Part shown: piece after piece, positions 1 through 64,000 of the stretch
Numbering within the stretch: position 1 is the first letter of the stretch
How the letters are laid out: the number at the start of each line of letters is the position of its first letter
Assembly (NCBI GenBank): GCA_017427285.1
Contig: JAFRTE010000046.1
Location: 71,401-135,400, forward strand
Source of the DNA: Clostridia bacterium
GTDB taxonomy: Bacteria; Bacillota; Clostridia; Oscillospirales; UBA644
Reading direction: 5' to 3'
DNA: 64,000 bases
Program-made: the position numbers and the translations under genes
The notes under the pieces: model-generated
Database searches by the model: none
Seen by the model: only the letters and a program-made list of their open reading frames with translations
Told to the model about the DNA's origin: nothing

Positions 1-417
1 TCCCGCGACCCAGAACTCCGGCTCTTCAAGATGGATCGCCTCAACGCCCGCGTCGATCGCAGTTTTCAGTCTTTTTGCAAGATACTGAGAATACGATACC
101 GAAGGCACCATATACGGAACGCCTTTATACCGTATATTGCTGCCGTGAGTTATTTCGTTTCCCTCGCAGTCTTTCTGTCCTTCGTCGCTGTGATCTCTTC
201 CGTCAAATTCGCCGTTATAATAGTCGTTATAGTTGCCCCAGGAAATTCCCGTCATAAGATGGACGATATACCCGCGCTTTTTCCAGTGAGCTATTCTCTC
301 TTTCAGTTTGTGAAGCCCGTAAACGATTGCAACGTCCGCCTGGATATCGTATCTTTCGTCATAGTCGGGGCTCTCCTGAAAAGCGGTCCGCTCTTCGCGT
401 CTGTCATATTCTTTCAT
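1..417 (-). CDS. Uncharacterised protein, N-terminal 139 residues (C-terminus beyond window)
   Basis: An open frame starts with ATG at 417 (minus), 18 bases after the stop of the GH95 gene, with an AAAGGAT ribosome site, and runs off the window edge. The visible 139 residues have no signal peptide and are rich in aromatic and charged residues, including the acidic motif HLEEPEFW near residue 130. A strand ending in adjacent acidic residues is what a TIM-barrel glycosidase-like fold would show, but I do not recognise the family. Being the third gene behind two fucosidases, it probably acts on the same class of carbohydrate; that is inference from position only. Confidence 0.7.
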   Translation of the reverse strand, partial: MKEYDRREERTAFQESPDYDERYDIQADVAIVYGLHKLKERIAHWKKRGYIVHLMTGISWGNYNDYYNGEFDGRDHSDEGQKDCEGNEITHGSNIRYKGVPYMVPSVSYSQYLAKRLKTAIDAGVEAIHLEEPEFWVAG

Positions 418-435
418 GGTAGATCCTTTCTGCTT

Positions 436-2568
436 TTATTCCGAATAAGTATAGTTTCCGTTAAATGTGTATTTTTTGCCGTTTATCATTACGCATCCGA
501 CATTGTTGCGTCTTCCTCTGATCTCGCACCAAACGGCTTTTCCGTTTTCCCATCTGCACGAAACCTTGAATCCGCCCCTGGCGACAAAACCGTCAAATTC
601 GCCGTTTTTCCATTCCTTCGGCAGCGCGGGCAGCACTTTTATACATCCGTCGTGGCTCTGCAAAAGCATTTCCATAATACCCGCCGTTCCTCCGAAATTA
701 CCGTCTATCTGGAAAGGCGGATGATTGTCGAACATATTCGGGAGCGTGCTGTTTTTCAGCAGCGCGATAATATTTTCATACGCTTTGTCACCGTCTGCAA
801 GACGGGCAAAAAAGTTGATTATCCACGCTCGGCTCCAGCCCGTATGTCCGCCGCCGTTTGCGAGTCTGCGGTCTATTGTCACCCTTGCGGCTTTAAACAG
901 TTCCGGAGTATTTTCGGTTATTTGCGCGGCGGGATGAAGCCCGTAAAGGTGGGACATGTGTCTGTGACCAGGCTCGGGTTCGTCAAAGTCTTCGGACCAT
1001 TCCATTATCTGGCCGTGTTTTCCTATGCGGATAGGGGGCAGTTTGGATAACTTTTCTTTCAGAACTTCTTTAAACCCGTTGTCCGTCTCAAGTATATCCG
1101 CCGCTTCGATGTTGAATTCAAAAAGCTCTCTTATTATGCATATATCCATCGTAGGCCCTGCGCAAATGCTTACGCTCTTGCCGTCGGTTGGGCTTATGAA
1201 TCTGTTCTCGGGCGAGCCGGCGGGAGCAGTCACAAGATACCCGTTTCGCGGATCGGTAACGAGATATGCACAGAAAAATTCCGACGAGCCCTTGATTATC
1301 GGATAAAACTCACGGAGGATTTCTTTGTCTCCTCCGTAAAGCCAGCGTTCTTTTACATGTCTCAAACACCATGCGCCGGCTGTGGCGAACGCGCCGAAAA
1401 CGGGATGCGCCCCGAGCGCGGTGTATCCCCACGGAGTCGTTGTGTAATGCGCGACCCATCCGGGACAGTTGTATACATTGCGCGCGGTCGCCTGTCCGTG
1501 TTTTGCGATCAGCTTTATCAGTTCAAAAAACGGCTCGATAAGCTCCGGCATGTCGGCGGTCTCCGCAAACCAGTAGTTCATCTGAATGTTTATATTGATA
1601 TGATAGTCTGCGCCCCACGGGGCCTGATAGTCTTTATTCCAAAGCCCCTGCAGATTTGCGGGCAGCATGCCTCTTGACGAACCTACGAGCAGATATCTGC
1701 CGAAATTGTAATAAAGCTCAACAAGACCGAGATCGTTTTCGGGGTTTTTTATCCTCTCGTTTGTAGGAATTTCGGCTTTCGATCCCGATTCCGGGAAAGA
1801 AAGTGTCGCTCTCGAAAGAATTTCCGAAAAATAATCGCAGGTATCTTTTAAAAGCTCGTCATATCCCGCTTCCATCGCGCGCCTGAGCGTTTCGTCACAT
1901 ACCTTGCACGGGTCGTTGTCAGTTCTGTATGACGTTGCAGCGGTAATGAATATATAAAGCGTGCCGTCTTTTTTGAAATATCGGATATATACCGCAAATT
2001 TCATCGGCAGATATCCTACAGACGTTATCTCGTTTTCGTTATACGTTATACGCGCGTTTTCTCTTTCATACCGTATTTTTGCGTCGTCAACGTCGCCCGT
2101 AACCCTGATAACGGCGGTATTGTATTTGTATGAAATAAAGCAGTCTCTGATGACAGTTCCGTATGAAACACGGGCGCGGCCTTCATCAAGGATCAGTTCG
2201 CGAACATAGTTTTCTTCTCCTTTGCCGGGAACGGTTATATAAAGTTCTCCCGCAGTCTGATTTGAGCCGAATGACGGCAAACGCTCTCTGTTTTTGTTTC
2301 GGCAAACCATATATTTTTCGCAAAGCTCGTCCGCCTGAGTGTATTTCCCCTCAAATATAAGCTGACGTATTTCGTCAAGATGCCTGATCGTCTGCGGATC
2401 GTCGTCGTCATCCGTTTCCCATCCTGACCAGATCGTTTTTTCGTTTAACTGAATACGCTCTTCGCCTGTCTTTCCGAAAACCATCATTCCGAGTTTACCG
2501 TTTCCGAGTGGCAGCGCCTCTTCCCATTCGTTGGCGGGAGAGGTATAAAACAGTCTGTTTTCTTTCAT
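436..2568 (-). CDS. Glycoside hydrolase family 95 protein (alpha-L-fucosidase type), copy 1
   Basis: A 710-residue GH95 enzyme, a family that removes terminal alpha-L-fucose (some members act on L-galactose) by an inverting mechanism. The N-terminal super-sandwich domain begins with the family signature ALPLGNGKLGMMVFG (residues 18-32). The (alpha/alpha)6 barrel carries the expected sites: NINIQMNYW near residue 327 with the two catalytic-site Asn, IMEWSEDF near 519 with the general-acid Glu, and QIDGNFGG near 619 with the conserved Asp. There is no signal peptide, so it should be cytoplasmic and act on imported fuco-oligosaccharides. It starts 17 bases after the second GH95 gene with a GAGGAG site, so the two are co-transcribed. 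Family is firm; the exact sugar is not. Confidence 0.95.
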   Translation of the reverse strand: MKENRLFYTSPANEWEEALPLGNGKLGMMVFGKTGEERIQLNEKTIWSGWETDDDDDPQTIRHLDEIRQLIFEGKYTQADELCEKYMVCRNKNRERLPSFGSNQTAGELYITVPGKGEENYVRELILDEGRARVSYGTVIRDCFISYKYNTAVIRVTGDVDDAKIRYERENARITYNENEITSVGYLPMKFAVYIRYFKKDGTLYIFITAATSYRTDNDPCKVCDETLRRAMEAGYDELLKDTCDYFSEILSRATLSFPESGSKAEIPTNERIKNPENDLGLVELYYNFGRYLLVGSSRGMLPANLQGLWNKDYQAPWGADYHININIQMNYWFAETADMPELIEPFFELIKLIAKHGQATARNVYNCPGWVAHYTTTPWGYTALGAHPVFGAFATAGAWCLRHVKERWLYGGDKEILREFYPIIKGSSEFFCAYLVTDPRNGYLVTAPAGSPENRFISPTDGKSVSICAGPTMDICIIRELFEFNIEAADILETDNGFKEVLKEKLSKLPPIRIGKHGQIMEWSEDFDEPEPGHRHMSHLYGLHPAAQITENTPELFKAARVTIDRRLANGGGHTGWSRAWIINFFARLADGDKAYENIIALLKNSTLPNMFDNHPPFQIDGNFGGTAGIMEMLLQSHDGCIKVLPALPKEWKNGEFDGFVARGGFKVSCRWENGKAVWCEIRGRRNNVGCVMINGKKYTFNGNYTYSE

Positions 2569-2585
2569 TTCGTTCTTCTCCTCTG

Positions 2586-4700
2586 TCAGCAGACAAATTC
2601 CGTTGTTTTACCGTTGTATTTAACGGTACATTTTTTACCTTTTTCGCCTTTGATATCAAGATGTTCAACTTTTCCGTCTTTCCAGCGGCACGACACTTTA
2701 AATCCTCCGCGCGCCGCCAGACCTTTGAATTCTCCGTCTTTCCATGCGTCGGGGAGGGCGGGCAGAAGATCTATATATCCGTCGTGACTTTGCAAAAGCA
2801 TCTCGGCAATACCCGCGGCTCCTCCGAAATTGCCGTCGATCTGAAACGGCGGGTGATTGTCAAACATATTGGGAAGAGTGCTTTTTGTGAAAAGCGCAAG
2901 AAGGTTTTCATACGCTTTGTTTCCGTCGCAAAGACGCGCGTAAAAGTTTATTATCCATGCTCTGCTCCAGCCCGTATGTCCGCCTCCGTGCGAAAGTCTG
3001 CGCTCTATTGTCTTTTTTGCCGCTTCAAACAACTCAGGCGTATTTTTTGTGATCTGAGCGGCGGGATACAGCGCAAAAAGATGCGAAATATGCCTGTGAC
3101 CGGGCTCGGCCTCATCAAAATCTTCCGACCATTCCATTATCTGCCCGTATTTTCCTATTCTTATCGGCGGAAGCTTTGATATTTTATCAAGCAGAATATT
3201 CTTAAACTCCGCGTCTTCTCCCAGCACGTCGATAGCTTCAACGTTAAATTCAAAAAGCTCCCTTACTATGCTTATATCCATTGTCGGACCGGCGCAGATA
3301 CTCGATTTTCCGCCGTCTTCGGGACGTATAAATGCGTTTTCGGGCGAGCTTCCCGGACACGTGACAAGATATCCGTTTCTCGGGTCGATAACCATATAAT
3401 CGCAGAAAAACAGCGAAGCTCCCTTGATTAACGGGTAGTATTTCCTTAAAACTTCCTTATCTCCCGAATACAGCCAGCGTTCCTTTATATGGCGGATAAG
3501 CCATGCGCCGCCCGTAACGTATACGCTCGACCAGCCGTAATTGCCGAGCGCTGCATGTCCGAACGGGTTCGTTACAACGCCCGCAAACCATCCTCTGCAG
3601 TGAAAATGAAGCTGCGCGCTCTCTTCTGCGGGCTTTAAAAACGTTTTTATCAGTTCAAAAAGCGGCTCAGTTAATTCGGAAAGACCGGCGACCTCCGCGA
3701 TCCAGTAATTCATCTGCAGGTTGATATTCATATGGAAGTCCGCAGCCCACGGCGGTCTGTATTCCTTATTCCATATCCCCTGCAGGTTTGCGGGAAGCTT
3801 TCCTCTCGATGATCCTACAAGCAGGTATCTTCCGAAATTGAAATAAAGCTCGGCAAGACCGACGTCCCCCTGAGGAGCAAGGATACGTTCGTTTGTAGGA
3901 ACGTCGTAATTTTTACCCGAATCGGCAAAGGTGATCTCCGCTCTCGAAAGCATTTCGCTGAAATAATCGGCTGTATCTTTCAAAACGACCTCATAGCCCG
4001 CGCCGATAGCTCTGTCGAGAGTTTCAGCAGTTGCTTTTTCCGGGTCTTCGTCCGTTTTGTATGAAGTTGCGGCGGTTATATAAATATATAAAGCGCCGTC
4101 TTTTTCAAAATGATGTATTCTTATAAAAAACTTTGTCGGCAGATATCCCACCGCGCATATTTCGCCGTCGCTCTGAGTTACCGATACGTTTTCTCTCTCG
4201 TATCTCAGCTTTGCGCCGTAAATATTTCCCGTCATTTTAATAACGGCAGTATTGTATGCGTATGATATAAAATAATTTCTTTCCGAACCGACAAAAGATA
4301 CTTTTGCACGTCCTTCGTCAAGAAACAGTTCGCGTTTATAGCCGTCGGCAGCAGCTTCGGGAAGCGTTATATAAAGGTCTCCCGCCGTCTGATATTCTCC
4401 GAATACGGACTTGTTGTGCGGACCTTCGCCCTTGCAGAGAAAATGTTTGTTGCATATTTCTTCCGCCTGCGCGTACTTGTTTTCAAATATAAGTCTGCGT
4501 ATTTCTTCAAGATAGCCGTATGCTTCGGGATTGAATGCTTCTTTCGATTCAAAACCCGCCCATATGCTTTCTTCATTTAGCTGTATCCTTTCTTCGGCAA
4601 CTCCTCCGAAAACCGTCATTCCGAGTTTTCCGTTGCCGAGGGGCAGCGCTTCTTCCCACTCGCGAGCGGGGGAGGTGTAAAACAGTCTGTTTTCTTTCAC
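2586..4700 (-). CDS. Glycoside hydrolase family 95 protein (alpha-L-fucosidase type), copy 2
   Basis: A 704-residue paralogue of the downstream gene and first gene of the operon, preceded by a consensus SigA promoter. The N-termini are nearly the same (both begin MKENRLFYTSPA), and the GH95 active-site blocks are all present: NINLQMNYW near residue 325, IMEWSEDF near 515, QIDGNFGG near 615. No signal peptide or membrane segment. The copies share architecture along their whole length but differ in the loop region around residues 340-380, where this protein reads GLSELTEPLFELIKTFLKPA, which could shift substrate preference. Tandem GH95 genes fit degradation of mixed fucosylated glycans; specificity cannot be read from sequence. 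Confidence 0.95.
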   Translation of the reverse strand: MKENRLFYTSPAREWEEALPLGNGKLGMTVFGGVAEERIQLNEESIWAGFESKEAFNPEAYGYLEEIRRLIFENKYAQAEEICNKHFLCKGEGPHNKSVFGEYQTAGDLYITLPEAAADGYKRELFLDEGRAKVSFVGSERNYFISYAYNTAVIKMTGNIYGAKLRYERENVSVTQSDGEICAVGYLPTKFFIRIHHFEKDGALYIYITAATSYKTDEDPEKATAETLDRAIGAGYEVVLKDTADYFSEMLSRAEITFADSGKNYDVPTNERILAPQGDVGLAELYFNFGRYLLVGSSRGKLPANLQGIWNKEYRPPWAADFHMNINLQMNYWIAEVAGLSELTEPLFELIKTFLKPAEESAQLHFHCRGWFAGVVTNPFGHAALGNYGWSSVYVTGGAWLIRHIKERWLYSGDKEVLRKYYPLIKGASLFFCDYMVIDPRNGYLVTCPGSSPENAFIRPEDGGKSSICAGPTMDISIVRELFEFNVEAIDVLGEDAEFKNILLDKISKLPPIRIGKYGQIMEWSEDFDEAEPGHRHISHLFALYPAAQITKNTPELFEAAKKTIERRLSHGGGHTGWSRAWIINFYARLCDGNKAYENLLALFTKSTLPNMFDNHPPFQIDGNFGGAAGIAEMLLQSHDGYIDLLPALPDAWKDGEFKGLAARGGFKVSCRWKDGKVEHLDIKGEKGKKCTVKYNGKTTEFVC

Positions 4701-4729
4701 GGTATCACCTGCTTTCGAAATATGTAAAA

Positions 4730-4758
4730 ATTATAATATAATATCCCGAAAAAGTCAA
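4730..4758 (-). promoter_or_regulatory. SigA promoter of the GH95 operon
   Basis: On the minus strand TTGACT (4758-4753), a 17-base spacer and TATAAT (4735-4730), about 30 bases before the first GH95 start codon. No obvious operator repeat overlaps it. Confidence 0.85.
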
Positions 4759-4904
4759 CACTTTTTTTTCGTCGGTATCCGGTAACTTTTAGAGTGTTTT
4801 ATGTTTTTTTCGGCCCTCAGAGAAACATTATGCAAAAAATATACCGGTTTTTAGAAAAACCGAATAAAAAACCGATAGTTTAAAAAAAATTTAATTTTAT
4901 CTTG

Positions 4905-4933
4905 TTGACACCGTAAAGAAAAGAGAGTATAAT
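4905..4933 (+). promoter_or_regulatory. SigA promoter of serC-serA
   Basis: Perfect TTGACA (4905-4910), 17-base spacer, perfect TATAAT (4928-4933), about 52 bases before the serC start. The leader is too short for a riboswitch or T-box. Confidence 0.9.
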
Positions 4934-4985
4934 ACCGTCTATATATTAATTAAAAAGACGCTTTGCGATATTCGGAGGGTATAAA

Positions 4986-6062
4986 ATGAGAGTTTACAAT
5001 TTTTCCGCAGGACCTTCTGTTCTTCCCGAAAAAGTGCTTGAACAGGCAAGGGACGAAATGCTCGACTGCAACGGCAGCGGTATGTCCGTCATGGAAATGA
5101 GCCACCGCTCAAAAGCATACGAGGCCATAATCGGAGGCGCAGAGGCGCTTCTCCGCGAAATCATGGGCATTCCGTCAAATTATAAGGTTTTGTTCCTTCA
5201 GGGCGGCGCATCTTCACAGTTCAGCATGATACCGCTCAACCTTATGAAAAACAACAAGATCGACCTCGTACTTACGGGTATGTGGGCTAAAAAAGCTATG
5301 GAAGAAGCTTCCCGTTACGGCCAGGTAAACGTCGTCGGCTCTTCGAAAGATAAAACGTTTTCGTATATTCCCGAACTAGACAAATCTGCATTCGATCCCG
5401 AGGCGGACTATTTCTATATCTGTCAGAACAACACCATTTACGGCACAAGATTCCCCGAGCTTCCCGATACGGGCAACGTTCCCCTCGTTGCGGACCTTTC
5501 TTCGTGCATACTCAGCGAACCGATAGACGTTAAAAAATACGGCATAATCTTCGCCGGCGCTCAGAAAAATATGGGTCCCGCAGGTCTTACGGTGGTTATA
5601 ATCCGCGAAGATCTTATTACGGAGCCGAAAGAGTTTACTCCGCAGATGTTTAGATATACTATCCATGCCGAAAACGGCTCGATGTACAACACTCCGCCGA
5701 CATATGCTATCTATATCCACAAACTCGTTCTCGAATGGCTCAAAGATCTCGGCGGACTTGAAAAAATGGGCGAAATCAACCGCAAAAAGGCCGATATTAT
5801 CTATAATTATCTCGATAGCTCTTCGATGTTCAAACCCACCGTTCACGGAGCATGCCGCTCGCTTATGAATATTCCGTTCGTTACCGGCAACGAAGAGCTC
5901 GACGCAAAATTCGTTAAAGAGGCAACCGCAAACGGATTCGTAAATCTCAAGGGTCACCGTTCCGTAGGCGGTATGAGAGCAAGCATATACAACGCTATGC
6001 CTGTCGAGGGCTGCGAAAAACTTGTTGAGTTTATGAAGGACTTTGAAAGGAGCAACGCGTAA
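4986..6062 (+). CDS. serC: Phosphoserine aminotransferase
   Basis: A 358-residue PLP enzyme that makes 3-phosphoserine from 3-phosphohydroxypyruvate and glutamate, the second step of serine synthesis. The N-terminus YNFSAGPSVLP is the SerC signature, and the Schiff-base lysine is K194 in FAGAQKNMGPAG. Length is normal for the family. The ATG follows a GGAGGG site. Its stop codon overlaps the start of serA (TAATG), so the two enzymes are translationally coupled. A shadow frame on the opposite strand is not coding. Confidence 0.97.
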   Translation: MRVYNFSAGPSVLPEKVLEQARDEMLDCNGSGMSVMEMSHRSKAYEAIIGGAEALLREIMGIPSNYKVLFLQGGASSQFSMIPLNLMKNNKIDLVLTGMWAKKAMEEASRYGQVNVVGSSKDKTFSYIPELDKSAFDPEADYFYICQNNTIYGTRFPELPDTGNVPLVADLSSCILSEPIDVKKYGIIFAGAQKNMGPAGLTVVIIREDLITEPKEFTPQMFRYTIHAENGSMYNTPPTYAIYIHKLVLEWLKDLGGLEKMGEINRKKADIIYNYLDSSSMFKPTVHGACRSLMNIPFVTGNEELDAKFVKEATANGFVNLKGHRSVGGMRASIYNAMPVEGCEKLVEFMKDFERSNA

Positions 6063-7225
6063 TGTTCAGCATCAAAACAATGAATAAAATCGCCGCAGTC
6101 GGCACAAAAAGATTCGGCGATAACTATACTGTTTCAGACAGCGAACAGAATCCCGACGGCATTCTCGTCCGTTCTGCATCACTTCTTGACGGAAACTTCA
6201 ATGACGGACTTCTTGCTATCGCCAGAGCAGGGGCGGGGGTAAACAATATTCCCCTTGACCTTTGCACGTCGAAAGGAATAGCTGTTTTCAATACGCCCGG
6301 AGCAAACGCAAACGCCGTAAAAGAGCTTACCATTGCAGGTATGCTCCTTGCTTCCCGCCGTATAGTGGAAAGCATAAACTGGGCTCAGACACTCAAGGGC
6401 AAGGGCGACGAAATACCAAAGCTCGTAGAAAAAGGCAAGAGCGATTTTGCCGGTCCCGAACTTGAAGGCAAAAAGCTCGGCGTTATCGGCCTTGGCGCAA
6501 TCGGAAGTCTTATAGTAAATGCCGCGTACGGACTTAACATGGAAGTATACGGTTACGATAATTATCTTTCCGTTGAAAGCGCGCTTCGTATGACAAGAAA
6601 CGTCAAGCGCGTTGAAAACGTAAAAACGATTTACGAAGAGTGCGATTACATAACGTATCACGTTCCTCTCAACGATTCCACGCGCCGTTATATCAATAAA
6701 GAAGTTTTCGCTCAGATGAAAGACGGCGTCCGCCTGTTTAACTTCTCAAGAGGCGAAATAGTAAACGAAGACGACCTCGAAGAGGCGCTGAACAGCGGCA
6801 AAGTCGCAAAATACGTTACGGATTTCCCGAACGAACATATCCTTTCCATGAAAAACGTTATCGCTATTCCTCATCTTGCGGCGTCCACAATGGAAAGCGA
6901 AGACAATTGCGCTGTAATGGCTGTAGACGAGATCAAAGATTATCTTGAAAACGGAAACGTCAAAAACAGCGTTAACTTCCCGAATGTTACATCCGAAAGA
7001 GCCGCGGGCGACAGAATCTGTGTTCTTCACAAAAACATCCCCAATATGCTCAGCCGCATATCCTCCGTTCTGGGCGAAATGAGCATCAATATCGAGTTTA
7101 TGCATTCAAAATCCCGCGGAGAGATCGGCTATGCTCTTCTTGACCTTGCAGGCAGCGTTCCCGAAACCGTCGCGGAAAATCTCAAGAGCATAGACGGCGT
7201 TCTTCTCGTAAGAATAATCAAATAA
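6062..7225 (+). CDS. serA: D-3-phosphoglycerate dehydrogenase with C-terminal ACT domain
   Basis: A 387-residue NAD-dependent dehydrogenase catalysing the first committed step of serine synthesis. The nucleotide-binding Rossmann motif GVIGLGAIGS lies at about residues 139-148, the catalytic Arg is in NFSRGEIVN near 230, and the catalytic His is in IPHLAAST near 271. The last ~70 residues form an ACT domain (RICVLHKNIPNMLSRISSVL), the usual site for serine feedback. This is the short SerA type, without the extra intervening domain of ~520-residue enzymes. It overlaps serC by one base and is followed by a terminator, giving a closed two-gene operon. Confidence 0.96.
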   Translation: MFSIKTMNKIAAVGTKRFGDNYTVSDSEQNPDGILVRSASLLDGNFNDGLLAIARAGAGVNNIPLDLCTSKGIAVFNTPGANANAVKELTIAGMLLASRRIVESINWAQTLKGKGDEIPKLVEKGKSDFAGPELEGKKLGVIGLGAIGSLIVNAAYGLNMEVYGYDNYLSVESALRMTRNVKRVENVKTIYEECDYITYHVPLNDSTRRYINKEVFAQMKDGVRLFNFSRGEIVNEDDLEEALNSGKVAKYVTDFPNEHILSMKNVIAIPHLAASTMESEDNCAVMAVDEIKDYLENGNVKNSVNFPNVTSERAAGDRICVLHKNIPNMLSRISSVLGEMSINIEFMHSKSRGEIGYALLDLAGSVPETVAENLKSIDGVLLVRIIK

Positions 7226-7241
7226 TCATTTCAGAATAAAG

Positions 7242-7275
7242 CGAAACCTTCGGCAAAACCGGAGGTTTCGTTTTT
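7242..7275 (+). terminator. Intrinsic terminator of serC-serA
   Basis: Eight-base stem CGAAACCT / AGGTTTCG with a GC-rich loop followed by five T. It lies between converging genes and ends the serine operon. Confidence 0.85.
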
Positions 7276-7284
7276 GTATTGAAG

Positions 7285-8664
7285 TTATTTATCAAGCTGA
7301 GCGTTTACTTTGTCCTCAACCGCGCCGAGAGCAGATGCAGCCGATTCCGAACCGTTCATAATTTTGCTGAACGCCGCGGTAATCGACGAATATGCCGATT
7401 CCAGAGGGCTTGACCAGTCGTATTTTACATTCTCCACCATGCTCAGAAAAGCATTTTTATCGTCTTCTCTGTAATAAAAAACGCTGCTTTCAAGAAAATC
7501 TATCCACGCTTTTCTGTTCGTCCCGTCAAGGGGCTCAAAAAGAATGTTCATAAGCGTTCCGAGATCGTCCTTTTCCATCTGTCCCATTTTAAGCAGCCAG
7601 TTTAAGCGCCTGCCCTGAGTAATATAGCTGCCTCCTATGCCGTATTCGCCGTTCGGACCGCACGGGAACGGAGCAAAGCCGTATCCGTCATGTTTGTATA
7701 CCGGCGTGTCGGCGTCAATGTGCCACTGTGTCATATGCGTAAAGTTGAATGACTCTCCCACAAAAAACAGCATTTTATGCTGGTTGAAGTCGCCGTATCC
7801 CGTCTGATATATGAGCTTTCTGTCTTTCAGTCCCTTTAACCAGTCGAATGTTTCATAAGCTTTCGAGTCTGTAAGAGCAAATCTGTTTTTGCCGTCGATT
7901 TCTTCAACTATCTGACATCCGTTTGAAAAAAGCGCCGTCTGCGATATCCTTGTTACGTCTTCATATCCCAGCCCCGTTACTTTTATATCGCCGTCTTCGT
8001 ATGTCGCGAGATCGAGAAGCGGCTCAAAGTTTTGCCATGTCCACGTTCCGTCCTCGAGCATTTCATGGGGAGTTTTTGTTATTCCCGCCTGTCGCAGGAC
8101 TGTTGAATCGAACATGCAAACTCCGAGTATTGCCGGAATAAACTCCCAGTCATAAGGAAAAGTTCCGTATTGCTTTCCGTCAAAATAACCGTATCTTATA
8201 AAATTCTTATTGCCCCATTTTTCATCGTTAATGTCTATTGTGTTTATGTCGTCATATGCAAAAAGCATATTCATTTTATAAATCCCGTATATCTCGCTTG
8301 CATGACAGTCAACCATATCGGGAATACGGTCCGTCGAAGCGGCAACATTTGTAAGAATAAATGTTTCAAATCCGTCGCTGCCTTCAAAAATATCGATTTT
8401 GCAGTTGTATTTCGATTCAATTTCCTTGTATCTTGCAATAAGGTGGTCGCCCATGGCGGTAAATCCCGCTTCGGGTTTCCATTCCTCATCCCAGCCGGTA
8501 AGGATAAGCATAGACTGACCTTCAAAATCGATCTTGAAGCTGTTTCTGCCGTCATCAAGGTTATAGTCAAAAACCTCTTTGCCGTCGCTTCCCGAACAGG
8601 CAAAAACCGACATCAGCGTGAAGACAACCATTGTCATACAGAAAATACGTTTCAATGTGTTCAT
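7285..8664 (-). CDS. Extracellular solute-binding lipoprotein (orphan, carbohydrate-type)
   Basis: A 459-residue family-1-like solute-binding protein. It has a lipoprotein signal peptide with lipobox SVFAC (Cys23), so it should be anchored outside the membrane. After the lipobox comes the acidic pattern EVFDYNLDDG, shared with other binding proteins in this window. Later motifs typical of Clostridia sugar-binding paralogues are visible: GTWTWQNFEPLL near residue 208 and FAPFPCGPNGEYG near 329. No permease or ATPase gene lies nearby, so either it works with a transporter encoded elsewhere or it has another sensing role. Own consensus promoter; monocistronic. Ligand unknown. Confidence 0.88.
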   Translation of the reverse strand: MNTLKRIFCMTMVVFTLMSVFACSGSDGKEVFDYNLDDGRNSFKIDFEGQSMLILTGWDEEWKPEAGFTAMGDHLIARYKEIESKYNCKIDIFEGSDGFETFILTNVAASTDRIPDMVDCHASEIYGIYKMNMLFAYDDINTIDINDEKWGNKNFIRYGYFDGKQYGTFPYDWEFIPAILGVCMFDSTVLRQAGITKTPHEMLEDGTWTWQNFEPLLDLATYEDGDIKVTGLGYEDVTRISQTALFSNGCQIVEEIDGKNRFALTDSKAYETFDWLKGLKDRKLIYQTGYGDFNQHKMLFFVGESFNFTHMTQWHIDADTPVYKHDGYGFAPFPCGPNGEYGIGGSYITQGRRLNWLLKMGQMEKDDLGTLMNILFEPLDGTNRKAWIDFLESSVFYYREDDKNAFLSMVENVKYDWSSPLESAYSSITAAFSKIMNGSESAASALGAVEDKVNAQLDK

Positions 8665-36134: not shown

Positions 36135-36210
36135 GCTGGTATGGCTCAGCAGGTAGAGCAGTTCACTCGTAATGAACAGGTCATCGGTTCGAATCCGATT
36201 ACCAGCTCCA
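36135..36210 (+). tRNA. tRNA-Thr (anticodon CGT)
   Basis: A 76-base cloverleaf with acceptor arms GCTGGTA / TACCAGC, D-arm GGCTCAGCAGGTAGAGC, anticodon arm GTTCA-CTCGTAA-TGAAC, T-arm with GGTTCGAATCC, discriminator T and encoded CCA. The anticodon CGT reads ACG (Thr). Confidence 0.96.
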
Positions 36211-37767: not shown

Positions 37768-38088
37768 ATGGAAAGAATTTATTACGATACCTACGAAAAC
37801 CGTATCCGCGTAACCGTCTGGGCAGATACCGCCTTTGACGGAAGCTTGCGGATCCATAACTATACGCGCGGGGTCTATATCGACGATATTTTCGGAACTG
37901 ACGAATACGAAACCTTCGCCGTAATTCCCGCAGATTTCGTTTCGGACGCGCTCACCGCCTCAGGCGCGTCTTCGCTTAAGGAACTGCTCGTTTATTTTGA
38001 TAATTTTGCTTGTTGCCGCAACGGCTATGAGCGGGTAAAATCGTGGCTCGGAAAAGAGGGTGTCTCTTTCACCGAGGAAACGCTGTGA
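37768..38088 (+). CDS. Small hypothetical protein
   Basis: 106 residues, no signal peptide or membrane segment, rich in Tyr, Asp and Arg (starts MERIYYDTYENRIRVTVW). The pattern of short alternating beta strands in the first half and helix in the second is all that can be seen; I do not recognise the family. A GGAG site lies before the ATG, and it is 15 bases after the sulfatase, so it is co-transcribed. The following ~150 bases up to 38236 hold no gene I can support. Confidence 0.75.
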   Translation: MERIYYDTYENRIRVTVWADTAFDGSLRIHNYTRGVYIDDIFGTDEYETFAVIPADFVSDALTASGASSLKELLVYFDNFACCRNGYERVKSWLGKEGVSFTEETL

Positions 38089-38236
38089 CGGAGAGCGCTT
38101 TTAAAATAGCTTGATAATTTGCTCCTTTAACGGGATCCGGACGGTAACGATTCCGATCATCGCCGCCTTATTTTATTATATCTTAAACCATTTCAGTATC
38201 ATTTTCCTCCAAAAAATAAAATTTTATTATTTTCTA

Positions 38237-38266
38237 TTGACATTTCTGTTTTTTTTTTGATATAAT
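38237..38266 (+). promoter_or_regulatory. SigA promoter of peptide-permease cassette 1
   Basis: Perfect TTGACA (38237-38242), an 18-base T-rich spacer and perfect TATAAT (38261-38266). The predicted transcript begins near 38273, a few bases before an AAGGAG ribosome site at 38281. Confidence 0.88.
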
Positions 38267-38291
38267 GAAAAAAAATGAATAAGGAGTAAAA

Positions 38292-38651
38292 AAAAAGAAT
38301 TATTTTAAGAAAATAATAAGCGTTCTGGTAATCGTCTCGGTTCTTGCGATATTTGCGGTTTCCGCGGCTGCGTCATTGTCTTACACCACGTCTGTTTACT
38401 GGAATGCTAATGAAACCGCAGCGTGGGCGGTAACAGAGGGCACGGGATCTTCTGCGCAGAATTTTTATGTAATGGCAAAAATAACAAGTTCGTCAACGGG
38501 TCAAACCGCCGTTGATTATGGAGACAGTAATTTTACAACGTATGCAATTGCTACTACCAATCAGGTTGCAGTGACTTATCCTTCGAGTATTCCGCTGGTA
38601 ACATATTCAGGATCTATTCGATACGGTTACGCTCCTGTTATTGACGGATAA
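38292..38651 (+). CDS. Small secreted protein of cassette 1, start codon missing
   Basis: The frame ending at 38651 continues upstream without a stop to the AAGGAG site at 38281-38286 and encodes a perfect signal peptide (KKNYFKKIISVLVIVSVLAI, then FAVSAAAS), but no ATG, GTG or TTG lies in frame where initiation is expected. The only in-frame candidate, TTG at 38376, would delete the entire signal. The mature part (~90 residues) is rich in Ser, Thr, Tyr and Ala, lacks Cys, and ends IPLVTYSGSIRYGY, a motif resembled by the second cassette (IPFVVSYYGSATY). Not a family I recognise. Either a start was lost by a small indel, or the sequence has an error in the nine-A run at 38288-38296. Confidence 0.6.
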   Translation, partial: KKNYFKKIISVLVIVSVLAIFAVSAAASLSYTTSVYWNANETAAWAVTEGTGSSAQNFYVMAKITSSSTGQTAVDYGDSNFTTYAIATTNQVAVTYPSSIPLVTYSGSIRYGYAPVIDG

Positions 38652-38665
38652 ATAATTAACAAAAT

Positions 38666-38704
38666 CTGACCCTGCAAACTCTAACGTTTATAGGGTCAGT
38701 TTTA
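38666..38704 (+). terminator. Hairpin between peptide and permease genes, cassette 1
   Basis: Perfect stem CTGACCCT / AGGGTCAG with an 18-base loop followed by TTTTATTATT. It lies inside the cassette, 15 bases after the peptide stop, so it probably acts as a leaky terminator or RNA stabiliser that gives more peptide than permease mRNA. Confidence 0.75.
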
Positions 38705-38756
38705 TTATTACACTGTTTTAAACATCATTTACTTCAACAGAAAGGATATTAACATT

Positions 38757-41243
38757 ATGAGATCCGTATTTGCGGATATTTGGTCAAGCTTAAAGAAATC
38801 ACCGTTTCTTTTCCTTTTTCTGTTCGTTCAAATCGTCATCACAAGTCTGATTCTATATATTTCGATCGCGAATTATTACTGGACCGAAGAGGCAAACAAT
38901 ACTGCAAATATAGCTTGGGGCAATAAGGAATATTATAAGCTTTACAATCCTGTTGTTATGGATGACAGCGATATGGAAGAGTTATTTTCGTTCATATGGA
39001 CTCCCTCGTATTATACTTATATGATGGATCCGGATACATACGATTTTTATTATTCTTTTCTTAAAAAAGTTGAAGATCTTACCGAAAGGCTTGAAGAGAT
39101 AGACGGTTTAACGGTAATGCCCGTAAAAACGAGTTACACTACGTTGCTTGAGGAGCGCAACTGGTCCGAAGAGGATAAAAAATACGGAGAGTTCGACATG
39201 TTTGAGCAAAACACGCCGTCGGTAAAGGACGAAAACGGCAACATAAGATACGTCAGGCTCAAAACTCTTTATGTAGACAGTAAATATTTCGAATATTACA
39301 ATACTAAGGTCAGCGAAGGAAGACTTTTTGAGAAAAACGATTTTCTGTACGATGACGAATATGTTCCGGTTATCATGGGCAGTAAATACAAAAAGTATTT
39401 TTCTTTGGGCGAGGAGTTTGAAATTCAGAGTCGGTTCGGCAAAACAAAAAACAAAGTTATCGGTTTTATCGCCGAAAATCAGTATTATACACATCCGAAC
39501 GGAGTTGGCTTGGTTTTTTCCTATGATAGTATAATAATAAAACCGATTATAGAAAGAAAAGCTGACGAAATACTCGAAAACGAGGAATATCTGCCTTATC
39601 TCGGACAGCTTGGCGCAGTTATCGATCAGGCGTTTTTGCTTATCGAACCCGAAAAGCAGGATGAAGTCGTATCTGAAATCGAAAATCTTCTTGACGAGTT
39701 TGAGCTCTCCGATTACCTTCGGCTCTTTCATTTGAGGATCGACAAAGAAATCGTGAGCAACTATAACGATCAGCTCGTTATCGGCATTGTGGCATGCGTG
39801 TTAACGCTTATCTTCTCTCTCTTCAGCTTCATATTTACAATGCTTTATAAGATAGATAATAATATAAAAAACTACGCCATCCGTATGGTGGTGGGCGAAA
39901 CGTATACCGGCATTTCGCTGCGTTATATTATTGAATCTTTGATCGTGTTTTTTCTCGGTCAGGCAACCGGTCTTTTCCTCTTCAGGATTTATGCCGTATA
40001 CTCATATATCTATCAGGGCTACAACAGTCTTGAAACGGCAACTCTGCGCACGGGAATTATACTTAATATGATTTTCTGCATAGTAAGCGCCGTTATCCTT
40101 TATATATGCGTTTCGGTCAAGCTGCGCTCTTACAGTCTTGCAACGCTCATCCGCGGAAATGAAGTGAGAAAAGAAAAGCATCTGCCTTTTTACCGCGTCG
40201 TCATCTTCCTTATGCTTGCCGTTGTCGGCGTTTTTGCGATGTTTATAGCAAGTTATCGTGTTCTGCTTGACAGAATAGATATTTATTACAACAGTTACTA
40301 TACAAAAAACGTTAAGATAGCATACGTTTTGAAAAAGAGCGGCGATGATGCGCCGGAAGTAACGGTAAACTGCGATGAAATAACCGGTAATGTCGGCGAC
40401 TCTGTCATAAACAAATATATCGATATGTTTTACAAGGGCGACGACTATATAGAGGAACGAGGGCTTTACTTTAACGGATATATAGACCCCGTAAATATGC
40501 TTTACGGAAGATTTTTCACTTCCGAGGAATCAGCCGGAGAAGAAAAGATCGCCGTCGTTGGAAAAGGCATATACGAAAAATATGTTACTTTTAACGAAGC
40601 TGGCGAACCGGTATATCACTCCGACGCGCTTGACGCAGATCTTCTCGTAACAGGCGTTATGGGCAAGGAGGACGCCGATACAAGTATAGACTTTACCGTT
40701 TTTACTCCCATAAAAGTTGCGACTGCAAAAAGCGCTTCGGGCTCCTATACTCTGGACGGAAAAGATAAAGCAACCGTTGAAAAACTCACCGAAGAATTTG
40801 AAAAATACGTTTCCGAAACCGCTGAGATAAACACGAGAGATTATAAACCGCGAATAACCGTCGAAGCTCCTACCGATATGCTTCTTATGCTGCTTGCGCT
40901 TATAGTTATCAACGCAATGGTCTTCTGCTTCTATTACGTATCAAAGCAGCGGAATATTCATTACGTCAAAAAACTTGTCGGTTATTCAAAAATAATGATT
41001 CTTGCCGACACTCTCATTGATTTTCTCGTTCTTACCGCCTGTGCGTTCATTTTCGGCAATGCGGTCACGGTCCTTCTTAAAGAGACCGTTTTCGCCGGCG
41101 CGGGTCTGTTTTCGATTTATATACTCGATTTTCAGGCGGTCCTTATTGCTTTCGTCGCCGTTGCGCTGCTTACCGTCGTGCTTACCGTTATTGCCGTGGC
41201 AAGAACGTTCGCTTCGGCAAACAACAACGAATACCGCGTATGA
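38757..41243 (+). CDS. Large FtsX-like membrane protein of cassette 1
   Basis: An 828-residue integral membrane protein with no ATPase domain. About eight hydrophobic helices can be read: ~13-38, an extracytoplasmic domain to ~335, helices near 340-365, 390-415, 435-455 and 480-500, a second external domain (~505-700), and helices near 704-723, 745-770 and 790-815. This is the topology of FtsX/MacB-type ABC3 permeases and of bacteriocin-associated integral membrane proteins. The N-terminus (ADIWSSLKKSPFLFL) aligns without gaps with the partial protein at 63830. No partner ATPase gene is adjacent. Likely job: export of, or immunity or response to, the small secreted protein upstream; this is inference. 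Confidence 0.82.
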   Translation: MRSVFADIWSSLKKSPFLFLFLFVQIVITSLILYISIANYYWTEEANNTANIAWGNKEYYKLYNPVVMDDSDMEELFSFIWTPSYYTYMMDPDTYDFYYSFLKKVEDLTERLEEIDGLTVMPVKTSYTTLLEERNWSEEDKKYGEFDMFEQNTPSVKDENGNIRYVRLKTLYVDSKYFEYYNTKVSEGRLFEKNDFLYDDEYVPVIMGSKYKKYFSLGEEFEIQSRFGKTKNKVIGFIAENQYYTHPNGVGLVFSYDSIIIKPIIERKADEILENEEYLPYLGQLGAVIDQAFLLIEPEKQDEVVSEIENLLDEFELSDYLRLFHLRIDKEIVSNYNDQLVIGIVACVLTLIFSLFSFIFTMLYKIDNNIKNYAIRMVVGETYTGISLRYIIESLIVFFLGQATGLFLFRIYAVYSYIYQGYNSLETATLRTGIILNMIFCIVSAVILYICVSVKLRSYSLATLIRGNEVRKEKHLPFYRVVIFLMLAVVGVFAMFIASYRVLLDRIDIYYNSYYTKNVKIAYVLKKSGDDAPEVTVNCDEITGNVGDSVINKYIDMFYKGDDYIEERGLYFNGYIDPVNMLYGRFFTSEESAGEEKIAVVGKGIYEKYVTFNEAGEPVYHSDALDADLLVTGVMGKEDADTSIDFTVFTPIKVATAKSASGSYTLDGKDKATVEKLTEEFEKYVSETAEINTRDYKPRITVEAPTDMLLMLLALIVINAMVFCFYYVSKQRNIHYVKKLVGYSKIMILADTLIDFLVLTACAFIFGNAVTVLLKETVFAGAGLFSIYILDFQAVLIAFVAVALLTVVLTVIAVARTFASANNNEYRV

Positions 41244-41289
41244 TTTATAATTCACTTTACTTTTTTAATAATAATTTCACATCTTTTTA

Positions 41290-58426: not shown

Positions 58427-58449
58427 ATCATATGAAAACAGGTGGTTTT

Positions 58450-60330
58450 ATGGAAACGATAGAAAAGTATACCGACTGCAAAAAAGAGGACGTGATCCGC
58501 AAAGTCCCGGAGAAACTCTGGTGCGACTGGCTCGAGCGGGCGTCCGATGAGGACAGAGCGGACGAGGCCTTTATGAAAAAGCTCGTCCTGCGCCGCGGGG
58601 AATGTCTGCGGTTCGCGCCCGACTCGCTGCGATCCGATCAGAGCACGGTCCTGAAGATCGTAAAGAGCTTCCCCGCCGCCATCGTTTATGCGTTGGAGGA
58701 GCTGCAGAACGACCGTAAGTTCATCAAGCAGGCGGTAAACCTGAACGCCGAAGTGATAAAATACGTAAGCGAAAGGTTCAGAAACGACAAAGGGCTCGTC
58801 CTCCTCGCCGTCAGAAGTGACCGGGAAATATTCTCCTTTCTCACGGAGGAGATGCAGAGCGACGCCGACGTGGCGGAAGCGTGGCTCGGCGGAAAACCGT
58901 TCAAACTGAAAAACGCGCCGGAAATAATACGGGACAACAAGGAGTTTGCGATCAGAACGCTTTCCATGTACGGCAGTATGCTAAAAGACGTGAGTGATCG
59001 TCTCCGCGCCGACAAAGAAGTCGTGACGGCTGCAGTCGGTTCGGCGTGGAACGCGCTCGGATACGCCGCCGAAGATTTGCGCGGCGACCGCGATGTGGTC
59101 CTTGCCGCCGTCGGGCACGACGGCTACGCACTTCAGTTCGCGTCTGAAGAATTGAAGGACGACAAAGAGATAGTCCTTTCGGCGATAGAGACCTATGAAG
59201 GCGACGTACTCGAATACGCATCGGAGCGGCTGAAGGACGACAAGGAGACGGTCCTTGCCGAGGTAAAGAGATGCGGAGATTCTATCGGCTTCGCGTCAGA
59301 GCGGTTAAGACACGACGGCGACGTTATCCGCGCGGTTCTTGACGCTTACCCCGGTCAGTTTGAAAACCTGCCGGACGACGTGCAGGAAAACCTCGATTAC
59401 ATTCTTTTCGGGCTCGAAAGCGTCGTAAGGAATCTCCCCGATCCCGAAAATTACAGCTTTTTCGAAGATTCGACAAGCGAATATTACTCCGACTTTGCTC
59501 AGGCGGAAGAGGATTTTCTCGACATATTCGAATCGATACCGCCCGAGGAACTGGAGGATGATCCGGAGCTGAACGACAGAGTCAGCCGGCTTGCCGTCGA
59601 ACTGAACGGCGCATATTACAAAGAAGGCGATTATCCGTATGAAGACGTTCACGACGGATTCATCTGCAGCATTGAAGCGCTGTACGAAGAACACGATATC
59701 CCGGTAAGCCCTGTCCTGAAAGAAGCTGTCGACGCGCTTCGCCGGGAAAGCGAAAAGAAAAAGGACGATAAATACAAGGATCTAAGCCCTGAGAAGAGAT
59801 CATTTTACGAAAATCTTGACTGGTATGAAAAGACCGTCGGCGGATCAGCCGTGAGATTCGGAGCGGAAGACAATCGGGATTATCTCGCCCCGGACGGCGG
59901 CTTTGTGAAAAACTGCATGACGTCCTTTGTCAAGGATCTGGTTTACTCGACGGACGGACTTTACCGCGACAGCGGGCTGTGGGAGGACGACGGATACGAG
60001 GTCGATCTCGACAAAGCTTACGAAGAGATCCGCGCACGGCTGTCTCCTGAGATAAACATCGTAAGGAATCATGATTCTTATTATTCGGAAAACATCACCG
60101 TCGACGTGACCGACGATATTCATCTCATACTTGTCAGATCCGTTCCGATGAAAATCATGAATATATGGGTGAACAAACAGGATTCCGAGCACGAGCGCGG
60201 CAGGTGGCTTTCCCCCGACAGGCTCGGAGAGTTCTGCGGCATGGTCGAACATATCCGCGATATTTACGGAAAATATGAGGAGCTTGCCCTGCTGCGCGCC
60301 GCAGAAATCAGAGAAAAACTCTGCTTGTAA
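58450..60330 (+). CDS. DUF4116-repeat protein
   Basis: About 626 residues. Residues ~40-310 are a run of ~48-residue DUF4116 helical repeats, recognisable by the recurring pattern ASEELKDDKEIVLSAI / ASERLKDDKETVLAEV. The second half (about 330-626) is not repetitive, acidic, and contains a beta-rich end. No signal peptide. The ATG at 58450 follows AGGTGG; an ATG at 58432 has no site. DUF4116 repeats form solenoid-like protein-binding surfaces in bacterial proteins of unknown function. Neighbouring genes are hypothetical too. Confidence 0.85.
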   Translation: METIEKYTDCKKEDVIRKVPEKLWCDWLERASDEDRADEAFMKKLVLRRGECLRFAPDSLRSDQSTVLKIVKSFPAAIVYALEELQNDRKFIKQAVNLNAEVIKYVSERFRNDKGLVLLAVRSDREIFSFLTEEMQSDADVAEAWLGGKPFKLKNAPEIIRDNKEFAIRTLSMYGSMLKDVSDRLRADKEVVTAAVGSAWNALGYAAEDLRGDRDVVLAAVGHDGYALQFASEELKDDKEIVLSAIETYEGDVLEYASERLKDDKETVLAEVKRCGDSIGFASERLRHDGDVIRAVLDAYPGQFENLPDDVQENLDYILFGLESVVRNLPDPENYSFFEDSTSEYYSDFAQAEEDFLDIFESIPPEELEDDPELNDRVSRLAVELNGAYYKEGDYPYEDVHDGFICSIEALYEEHDIPVSPVLKEAVDALRRESEKKKDDKYKDLSPEKRSFYENLDWYEKTVGGSAVRFGAEDNRDYLAPDGGFVKNCMTSFVKDLVYSTDGLYRDSGLWEDDGYEVDLDKAYEEIRARLSPEINIVRNHDSYYSENITVDVTDDIHLILVRSVPMKIMNIWVNKQDSEHERGRWLSPDRLGEFCGMVEHIRDIYGKYEELALLRAAEIREKLCL

Positions 60331-63015: not shown

Positions 63016-63180
63016 TTATACATAACGATAATGACCGTTCTTTCTTGAAATAAAAGCTTTCTCGCATATATCGCTAATTGACAGGTGGCTTTTTTCTCCT
63101 TTTAAAAGCTCAACTGCAATACTTTTAATCTGTTCGTGATTGGAGTTTGTTATATCGTAATTGTTTATTACCATATTCAT
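63016..63180 (-). CDS. Short HTH-like protein (TetR N-terminus-like), possibly a fragment
   Basis: A 54-residue frame from ATG 63180 (or ATG 63174, better spaced from GAGAG) to TAA 63016. The sequence QIKSIAVELLKGEKSHLSIS followed by DICEKAFISRK and HYRYV follows the helix-turn-helix pattern of TetR-family N-termini, with one extra residue before the final Tyr motif, and it ends where the ligand domain would begin. It could be a tiny DNA-binding protein or the remnant of a TetR regulator. A near-consensus promoter with a 14-base palindrome lies upstream, and the peptide cassette 2 is divergent from it. Confidence 0.5.
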   Translation of the reverse strand: MNMVINNYDITNSNHEQIKSIAVELLKGEKSHLSISDICEKAFISRKNGHYRYV

Positions 63181-63242
63181 CTCTCTGTTAAATAAAAGAG
63201 TGCATATTTAAAAAAACTGTGAACTTAACATTGCTTCTTTTC

Positions 63243-63274
63243 TATAGTATACTATATACAGCAGCACTTGTCAA
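63243..63274 (-). promoter_or_regulatory. SigA promoter with a palindromic operator candidate
   Basis: Minus strand TTGACA (63274-63269), 17-base spacer, TATACT (63251-63246). The -10 box lies inside the perfect palindrome TATAGTATACTATA (63243-63256), a reasonable binding site for a dimeric repressor such as the HTH protein downstream. Confidence 0.7.
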
Positions 63275-63403
63275 CCCACCCCATTCGGAGTATATACGAT
63301 TCCGTTTCCTGCGCGCAAAACGAAACGGAAACCGAGAGCTCATTTAATTCGGATCTGTGCTGACAATGTTTCCACATATTAATATAATAAGGAGAAATAC
63401 AGC

Positions 63404-63749
63404 ATGAATTAAAACTATTATTGCGATTGCCGTTGTTGCGGTGATCATTTCAGCTATCGCTGTTCCCGCGTTTGCAGGTGCGACCGGTCTGACGTATCAG
63501 GCGGGATGGGAAGCATCTGACTTGCCACATAATTTGGTTGCTCGTGCAACTCTTTCCTTCAGCGGTGGTAATGGCAGAGAGGTCTATTGTTCTGCAGTTG
63601 CGGAAACAAATTTGGGGAATCTTTCGATTATATTCGAATTAACCCATGCGATCTCCGCATCATACGTGGGCGAATATGTTCCGTATCAATTGGATATTCC
63701 GTTTGTTGTCAGCTATTATGGTTCAGCCACATATACCGGCAGACCGTAA
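63404..63749 (+). CDS. Small secreted protein of cassette 2, frameshifted at the start codon
   Basis: AAGGAG (63389-63394) is followed nine bases later by ATG 63404, but that frame stops at the third codon (ATG AAT TAA). Shifted by +1 from 63408, the frame is open to 63749 and gives a full signal peptide (IKTIIAIAVVAVIISAIAVP, then AFAG) and a ~90-residue mature protein ending IPFVVSYYGSATYTGRP. Restoring two bases in the A-run after ATG would repair it. The C-terminal motif resembles the cassette 1 protein. A CTGACA-17-TATAAT match (63360-63388) exists, but its start would lie beyond the ribosome site, so it is doubtful. Confidence 0.6.
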
Positions 63750-63766
63750 TTAAAAAATGAAATGCT

Positions 63767-63790
63767 GAGGGGATGATATTGCATCCCCTC
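63767..63790 (+). other. Hairpin between peptide and permease genes, cassette 2
   Basis: Perfect nine-base-pair stem GAGGGGATG / CATCCCCTC with an ATATTG loop and no T-run, 17 bases after the peptide stop. It is in the same place as the hairpin of cassette 1 with a different sequence, so position rather than sequence is conserved. Confidence 0.75.
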
Positions 63791-63829
63791 GCATAAAGGA
63801 ATCAATAAAGGATAAAATGAGGGATCGAT

Positions 63830-64000
63830 ATGAAAATGCTTCTTTTGAATATATGGTGCAATATTAAAAAATCCCCAATCATTTCTCTGATTATTTTTTT
63901 ACAAATCCTTCTTACGGGATTTTTCCTTTTTGTAACCGTAAACACACATGTATATCAGTCGATGCGCAATACGGACGTTCAGAATGCATACGGTGTAAAC
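63830..64000 (+). CDS. FtsX-like membrane protein of cassette 2, N-terminal 57 residues
   Basis: ATG 63830 follows GAGGG with seven bases spacing; the gene runs off the window. The visible part has a basic start and one long membrane helix (NIWCNIKKSPIISLIIFLQI, then LLTGFFLFVTV). It aligns without gaps with residues 1-57 of the cassette 1 permease (IW-x3-KKSP and the QI-x2-T helix core). So this is a paralogue in the same position relative to a secreted peptide gene. Confidence 0.8.
   Translation, partial: MKMLLLNIWCNIKKSPIISLIIFLQILLTGFFLFVTVNTHVYQSMRNTDVQNAYGVN

Follow-up and report, generated by a model that had tools for sequence, protein, structure and literature searches.

A gene pair in which a small secreted protein precedes a large FtsX-like permease is found twice in the 64,000-nucleotide stretch of Clostridia DNA analysed here (the window), and raises the question of what such a cassette does for the cell. 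The initial annotation of this DNA had proposed a new export, immunity or antagonism cassette, by analogy to bacteriocins of the lactococcin 972 kind. As described below, the cassette is probably a bacteriocin-type antagonism system working like lactococcin 972, where the permease would be protective and the peptide would be antibacterial. In such a system, the small beta-sandwich protein would leave the cell through its Sec signal peptide and attack related bacteria, probably at the cell envelope, and the MacB-like permease with eight transmembrane (TM) helices would confer protection through an effect either on the peptide or on its target. The permease would be driven by a LolD/MacB-type ATPase, which is encoded beside only some of the copies and is perhaps shared. 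The many cassettes of one genome would move between species by recombination and exchange their mature peptides, and the permease would often be kept after loss or silencing of the peptide, giving rise to immune non-producers. Export as the main role finds little favour, since a Sec-type signal peptide makes an export function unnecessary and half of the permeases stand without a peptide.

The two window cassettes and their family

The promoter, signal-peptide frame, hairpin and eight-helix permease that had been described at 38.2-41.2 kb were all found (38237-41243; Table 1), and the same order of peptide frame (63408-63746), hairpin and permease start (63830) is repeated at 63.4 kb. Permease 1 is an intact reading frame, where hydropathy shows two rounds of one TM helix, an ectodomain and three TM helices, the first ectodomain having about 300 and the second about 200 residues; it scores 26.3 bits for FtsX (cut-off 25.5) and 48.1 bits for MacB_PCD (cut-off 27). 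Permease 2, read past the window end (C42:135230-137731), has 834 residues and is 27% identical to permease 1. The two peptides end alike, as had been noted, in IPLVTYSGS (copy 1) and IPFVVSYYGS (copy 2). The spacer hairpin of copy 1 has a folding energy of -20.3 kcal/mol (z -3.4), and in most other cassettes the spacer between peptide and permease also holds a hairpin, of different sequence.

Table 1. Features of the two cassettes, in window positions; C42 is the contig that runs on past the window.
Feature	Position	Strand	Basis
Exchangeable cassette copy 1 (promoter, peptide frame, hairpin, permease)	38055..41267	+	homology breakpoints against the empty site in G001
Sigma-70-like promoter, TTGACA-N18-TATAAT	38237..38266	+	-35/-10-like boxes, read from sequence
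Secreted peptide 1 frame (signal peptide, then 92-aa mature beta sandwich as modelled)	38283..38648	+	ATG to AAG at 38295-38297; AlphaFold2 model; fold match
Hairpin with T-rich tail in the peptide 1-permease 1 spacer	38665..38699	+	folding energy
Permease 1, 828 aa, 8 TM (1+3+1+3), FtsX and MacB_PCD	38757..41243	+	ORF, Pfam, hydropathy
Upstream element with inverted repeat CCGTTTC...GAAACGG, common to copy-2-type cassettes	63231..63388	.	sequence comparison
Secreted peptide 2 frame (mature part about 63477-63746), frameshifted directly after ATG AAT	63404..63746	+	sequence; AlphaFold2 pLDDT 92.6
Hairpin between peptide 2 and permease 2	63757..63796	+	-21.6 kcal/mol, z -4.8
Permease 2 start	63830..64000, runs on to C42:137731	+	contig read past window end

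The lack of an adjacent ATPase, which had been remarked upon, holds for copy 1, where the next gene encodes the substrate-specific component of an ECF transporter, but not as a general feature. An ATPase gene looked for past position 64000 does lie 3' of permease 2, from C42:137834 to the contig end, where it is cut, and the order peptide-permease-ATPase is also found on contigs C43, C7 and C28 of this genome. The ATPase copies of the window genome are 97-100% identical beside widely different permeases, which suggests that one ATPase type could serve many permeases, acting in trans.

Several further observations concern the surroundings of the cassettes. The upstream element of copy 2 (window 63231-63388; 110-190 bp where it recurs) also precedes the cassettes L042, L043, L045, L047, L131 and L052, and in L052 its inverted repeat is kept with different letters, a pattern that suggests an operator or a structured element. 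Divergent to a copy-2-type cassette in L041 lies a TetR-type regulator (3489-4073, plus strand; TetR_N and TetR_C_8 above cut-off), and the corresponding place in the window holds only a 54-aa frame (63016-63180, minus strand). Elsewhere in the window, positions 58432-60330 encode a 632-aa protein with seven DUF4116 repeats.

To call the cassette duplicated was correct in that a second copy exists, but it understated a large dispersed family: in the window genome, about 20 paralogous loci account for 26 permease matches, many of them at contig ends, and the identity of the others to copy 1 ranges from 25 to 57% across the parts that align better. Permease matches occur in eight of the ten genomes of the genus. 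In other genera, 49 genomes gave a single weak match, and when 295 genomes of the order were searched with a profile, only four weak partial matches lay outside the genus. The family, all but absent from the 285 other genomes of the order, is regarded as genus-restricted. The genus is one of cow-rumen bacteria; the named relatives are rumen metagenome assemblies. A search of viral contigs found no relatives of the permease, and thus no phage carriage was seen; PADLOC gave no match, and the PDB searched by sequence gave chance capsid matches only.

The peptide frames form five BLAST clusters, with both window peptides in the largest, and in all clusters they encode a small secreted protein with a Sec-type signal peptide (a charged, then hydrophobic N-terminus, by inspection and hydropathy). 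Profiles of the two main groups of the largest cluster match five species (window genome, G001, G005, G006 and G009), in which the peptide-permease order recurs, so that the gene pair is indeed present in other genomes; with this and the many paralogous loci, the arrangement goes far past what chance would give. The same profiles had no match in G004 and G008, despite many permeases there, all without a peptide. Every full-length peptide match adjoins a permease, where the one apparent exception lies beside a permease start that runs off its contig end. At some loci (L043, L045, L047, L048, L142 and L164), the permease is encoded by two half-size genes, an N half of about 480 and a C half of about 370 residues, which are consistent across species and have peptide clusters of their own. 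In L157 (G004; 386-7835), three complete tandem permeases follow each other with hardly any gap, and no peptide accompanies them.

Resemblance to the lactococcin 972 system

The analogy to lactococcin 972 is supported by the predicted fold of peptide 1, which was modelled by AlphaFold2 with 11 family members as a six-stranded sandwich (pLDDT 95.6). In Foldseek against the PDB, lactococcin 972 (2LGN) is ranked first (E 0.095, prob 0.85), and it is also first in VIA-align, with Z 7.6 and an rmsd of 2.2 A over 66 of its 66 residues, followed in second rank by "Formosin D", for which no paper was traced. A structural Z under 8 can mean a common arrangement, and this value lies just under 8; the match counts for more here, as the genomic context leads independently to a lactococcin 972 system. 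For peptide 2 (pLDDT 92.6), 2LGN is again at the top, with Z 5.5 over 65 residues, tied with unrelated beta sandwiches. PF09683 and TIGR01653 had no match to the peptides, and PF09683 is absent from all ten genomes of the genus.

A peptide that is a secreted signal or a surface beta-sandwich protein, involved in communication, adhesion or sugar binding and released or sensed by the permease, is quite unlikely. It would account for the similar Z scores of carbohydrate-related and adhesin beta sandwiches, above all with peptide 2, and for the TetR-type regulator divergent to one cassette. However, peptide 1 matches lactococcin 972 at full length with a score well above the sugar-enzyme rows of VIA-align (Z 5.0 and below), no cell-wall anchor motif was noticed in the sequences, and orphan permeases are common.

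Evidence from the permease also favours the lactococcin 972 system. When compared with five permeases found with the TIGR01654 model in the class, one of which is over the cut-off, the family permeases align in a profile-profile comparison (hhalign) with E 1.1e-6 and prob 91, and by hydropathy both have the same 1+3+1+3 TM plan. The members that match TIGR01654 itself do so weakly, at 17-23 bits and E 1e-3 to 3e-5, against a cut-off of 189 bits; PF07242 has no match in the family permeases, and the ADOP and MacB models of NCBIfam score the permease far below cut-off. The best model for the ATPase is TIGR03608 at 227 bits, below its cut-off of 254.85, with LolD almost equal at 224 bits. These two models are well separated by the ATPase of a positive control, the lactococcin-972-like locus L224 (TIGR03608 241 vs LolD 167 bits), where a peptide with a weak TIGR01653 match (26.6 bits) is followed by a permease and then by an ATPase whose best model is TIGR03608, with a hairpin in the spacer. 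Permease and peptide thus lean to lactococcin 972, and the ATPase lies between the TIGR03608 group and LolD/MacB.

The same data bear on another explanation, in which permease and ATPase form a MacB/BceB-like exporter for detoxification of foreign antimicrobials or for envelope stress, with the peptide in an accessory role as sensor, decoy or capturer of the substrate. The MacB_PCD and FtsX domains above cut-off, the LolD/MacB-like scores of the ATPase, the half of the permeases that stand alone (including all of those detected in G004 and G008) and the loose pairing of peptide and permease are all consistent with such an exporter. We nevertheless regard it as unlikely, as the permease aligns with TIGR01654-type permeases of the same TM plan, the peptide fold is closest to lactococcin 972, and the mature peptides are far more divergent than the signal peptides, which is what one would expect if a weapon has to follow targets that change.

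The bacteriocin-type reading can be placed among known systems. With lactococcin 972 (lcn972-orf2-orf3; PF09683/TIGR01653, TIGR01654, TIGR03608), which acts on lipid II (PMC4055356), the cassette shares a Sec-secreted small beta sandwich, a hairpin, a fused MacB-like permease with eight TM helices and, at some loci, an ATPase gene after the permease. It differs from that system in a mature peptide of about 90 rather than 66 residues, in a first permease ectodomain of about 300 rather than 165 residues, in the lack of a sequence-model match, in an ATPase that is found only at some loci and is not clearly of the TIGR03608 group, and in being dispersed over each genome in many copies. Mediterrocin of Mediterraneibacter gnavus, which has 18% identity to Lcn972, has the same predicted fold and has been shown to be antibacterial (PMC12345188). 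It is likewise clostridial, with a 114-residue precursor, a 25-residue signal and a permease and ATPase nearby, but it is annotated in the lactococcin 972 family, has a DUF1430 permease and occurs in one cluster with mobile elements (PMC12345188). In the lactococcin-972-like streptococcin B system, scbABC, many strains also retain the B and C genes without the peptide: 27.5% of pneumococci keep scbBC without scbA, and the functions of scbB and scbC are experimentally unverified (PMC11796350). The pneumococcus has one locus under competence control (PMC11796350), whereas the family described here has up to about 20 loci, interspecies exchange and no competence-type regulator. The MacB, LolCDE and ADOP-type FtsX permeases share the FtsX and MacB_PCD domains, the duplicated permease layout and a LolD-like ATPase, and from these the family differs in that it is confined to one genus and that a secreted peptide often accompanies it. 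Judged from sequence and modelled structure, the cassette proteins would be a functional analogue and distant relative of the lactococcin 972 system that lies outside the curated models; the system is a divergent, expanded and exchangeable relative of a known kind and not a new kind.

Broken peptide genes beside open permeases

Both peptide frames of the window lack a usable canonical start before the signal peptide, and both permeases are fully open. In copy 1, the initiator codon reads AAG, as opposed to ATG in the near-identical relative L109 (Tb.RUG.167), and in RUG12846 (L110) the ATG of peptide 1 is also missing and the A-run is shorter, so that this loss is seen in two genomes. A non-ATG start for peptide 1 was rejected as first choice, given the normal ATG of L109 at that very codon. 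In copy 2, the start reads ATG AAT TAA and the signal-peptide frame is one base off, which may be an assembly error. As the remainder of both frames is intact, the start losses look recent.

Similar damage is found throughout the family, where 13 of 45 peptide genes examined by eye are broken through loss of the start, a frameshift or reduction to a fragment, including copies with damage in the middle of the gene. The permease beside a broken peptide gene is open in 12 of these 13 cases, as far as the contigs reach, and the reverse case, a broken permease beside an intact peptide, occurs once (L136), though the permease gene is seven times longer. This contrast is quoted as a trend, as it is inflated by shared ancestry (W1/L110, L149/L171) and by a search that began from the permease, with the result that permease loss is under-counted. 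Two further peptides, the upstream copies in L040 and L165, have an ambiguous start. In L149 (G005) and L171 (G006), the peptide frames are broken at an A-run just 3' of the start codon, and a slippage-type on/off switch by programmed frameshift or phase variation is possible there.

A peptide is missing beside 33 of the 65 permeases that could be used for a tree, and the well-supported branches of that tree force at least 11 changes between presence and absence of the peptide.

Exchange of peptides and cassettes

Selection for protein, on which the initial annotation had made its proposal depend, is present in the peptide frames: dN/dS of the mature part is mostly 0.04-0.3, with dS often saturated, and non-coding peptide frames were rejected on these purifying values. 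In several groups, the signal peptides are much more alike than the mature parts. Permeases that are 95% identical in L035/L167 stand beside peptides of 58% identity, and those of 94% in L044/L150 beside peptides of 65%; conversely, an identical (100%) mature peptide is found in L042/L131 beside permeases of 64% identity. Such a change of partners argues for recombination between cassettes, and in both directions it is awkward for a rigid one-to-one immunity lock.

Whole cassettes are exchanged as well. The window genome, Tb.RUG.167 and RUG12846, which represent three species, have in common a 3.2-kb island of about 99% identity (97-100% along it) that spans about 37.9-38.1 to 41.3 kb, between flanks of roughly 78-88% identity. 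An assembly or binning error behind this island was rejected, as single contigs carry both the island and its diverged flanks. The corresponding site is empty in G001, where homology breaks off at 38054 and, after about 68 bp in G001, begins again at 41268; G004 has no cassette at this site, and G009 has a decayed copy there of 53% identity. No transposase or integrase was seen with the insert, which makes homologous recombination the likely route of its spread. A tRNA-Thr gene lies near the left flank of the site (window 36135-36210), with no integrase seen beside it.

The missing starts of both window peptides and the G009 copy at the same site, which has many stops, could also be taken to mean that the window copies are decaying remnants with no present function, and that the 99% island reflects hitchhiking with a neighbour. 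This is very improbable: both permeases are fully open, copy 1 shows a dN/dS of about 0.25 between species, and no more than about 25 bp separate the end of the island from the permease 1 stop, with neighbour genes as diverged as the rest.

Under the bacteriocin-type reading, it is a tentative but real possibility that within one genus, a lactococcin-972-like toxin/protection cassette has become a dispersed repertoire that recombines freely. At a fixed site, near-identical cassettes would sweep between species, mature peptides would be swapped behind constant signal peptides and permeases, and starts would be repeatedly lost with the permease kept, where cells collect protection against the weapons of their neighbours, like the orphan immunity genes of contact-dependent systems. 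Since the proteins escape all curated models used (Pfam, NCBIfam, PADLOC), model-based surveys of rumen bacteriocins are expected to miss the family. Dozens of natural permease variants with and without a peptide, together with the peptide swaps, make the protective role directly testable, and a probably non-producing allele that spreads from species to species would clearly illustrate, in nature, how protection can travel without its weapon.
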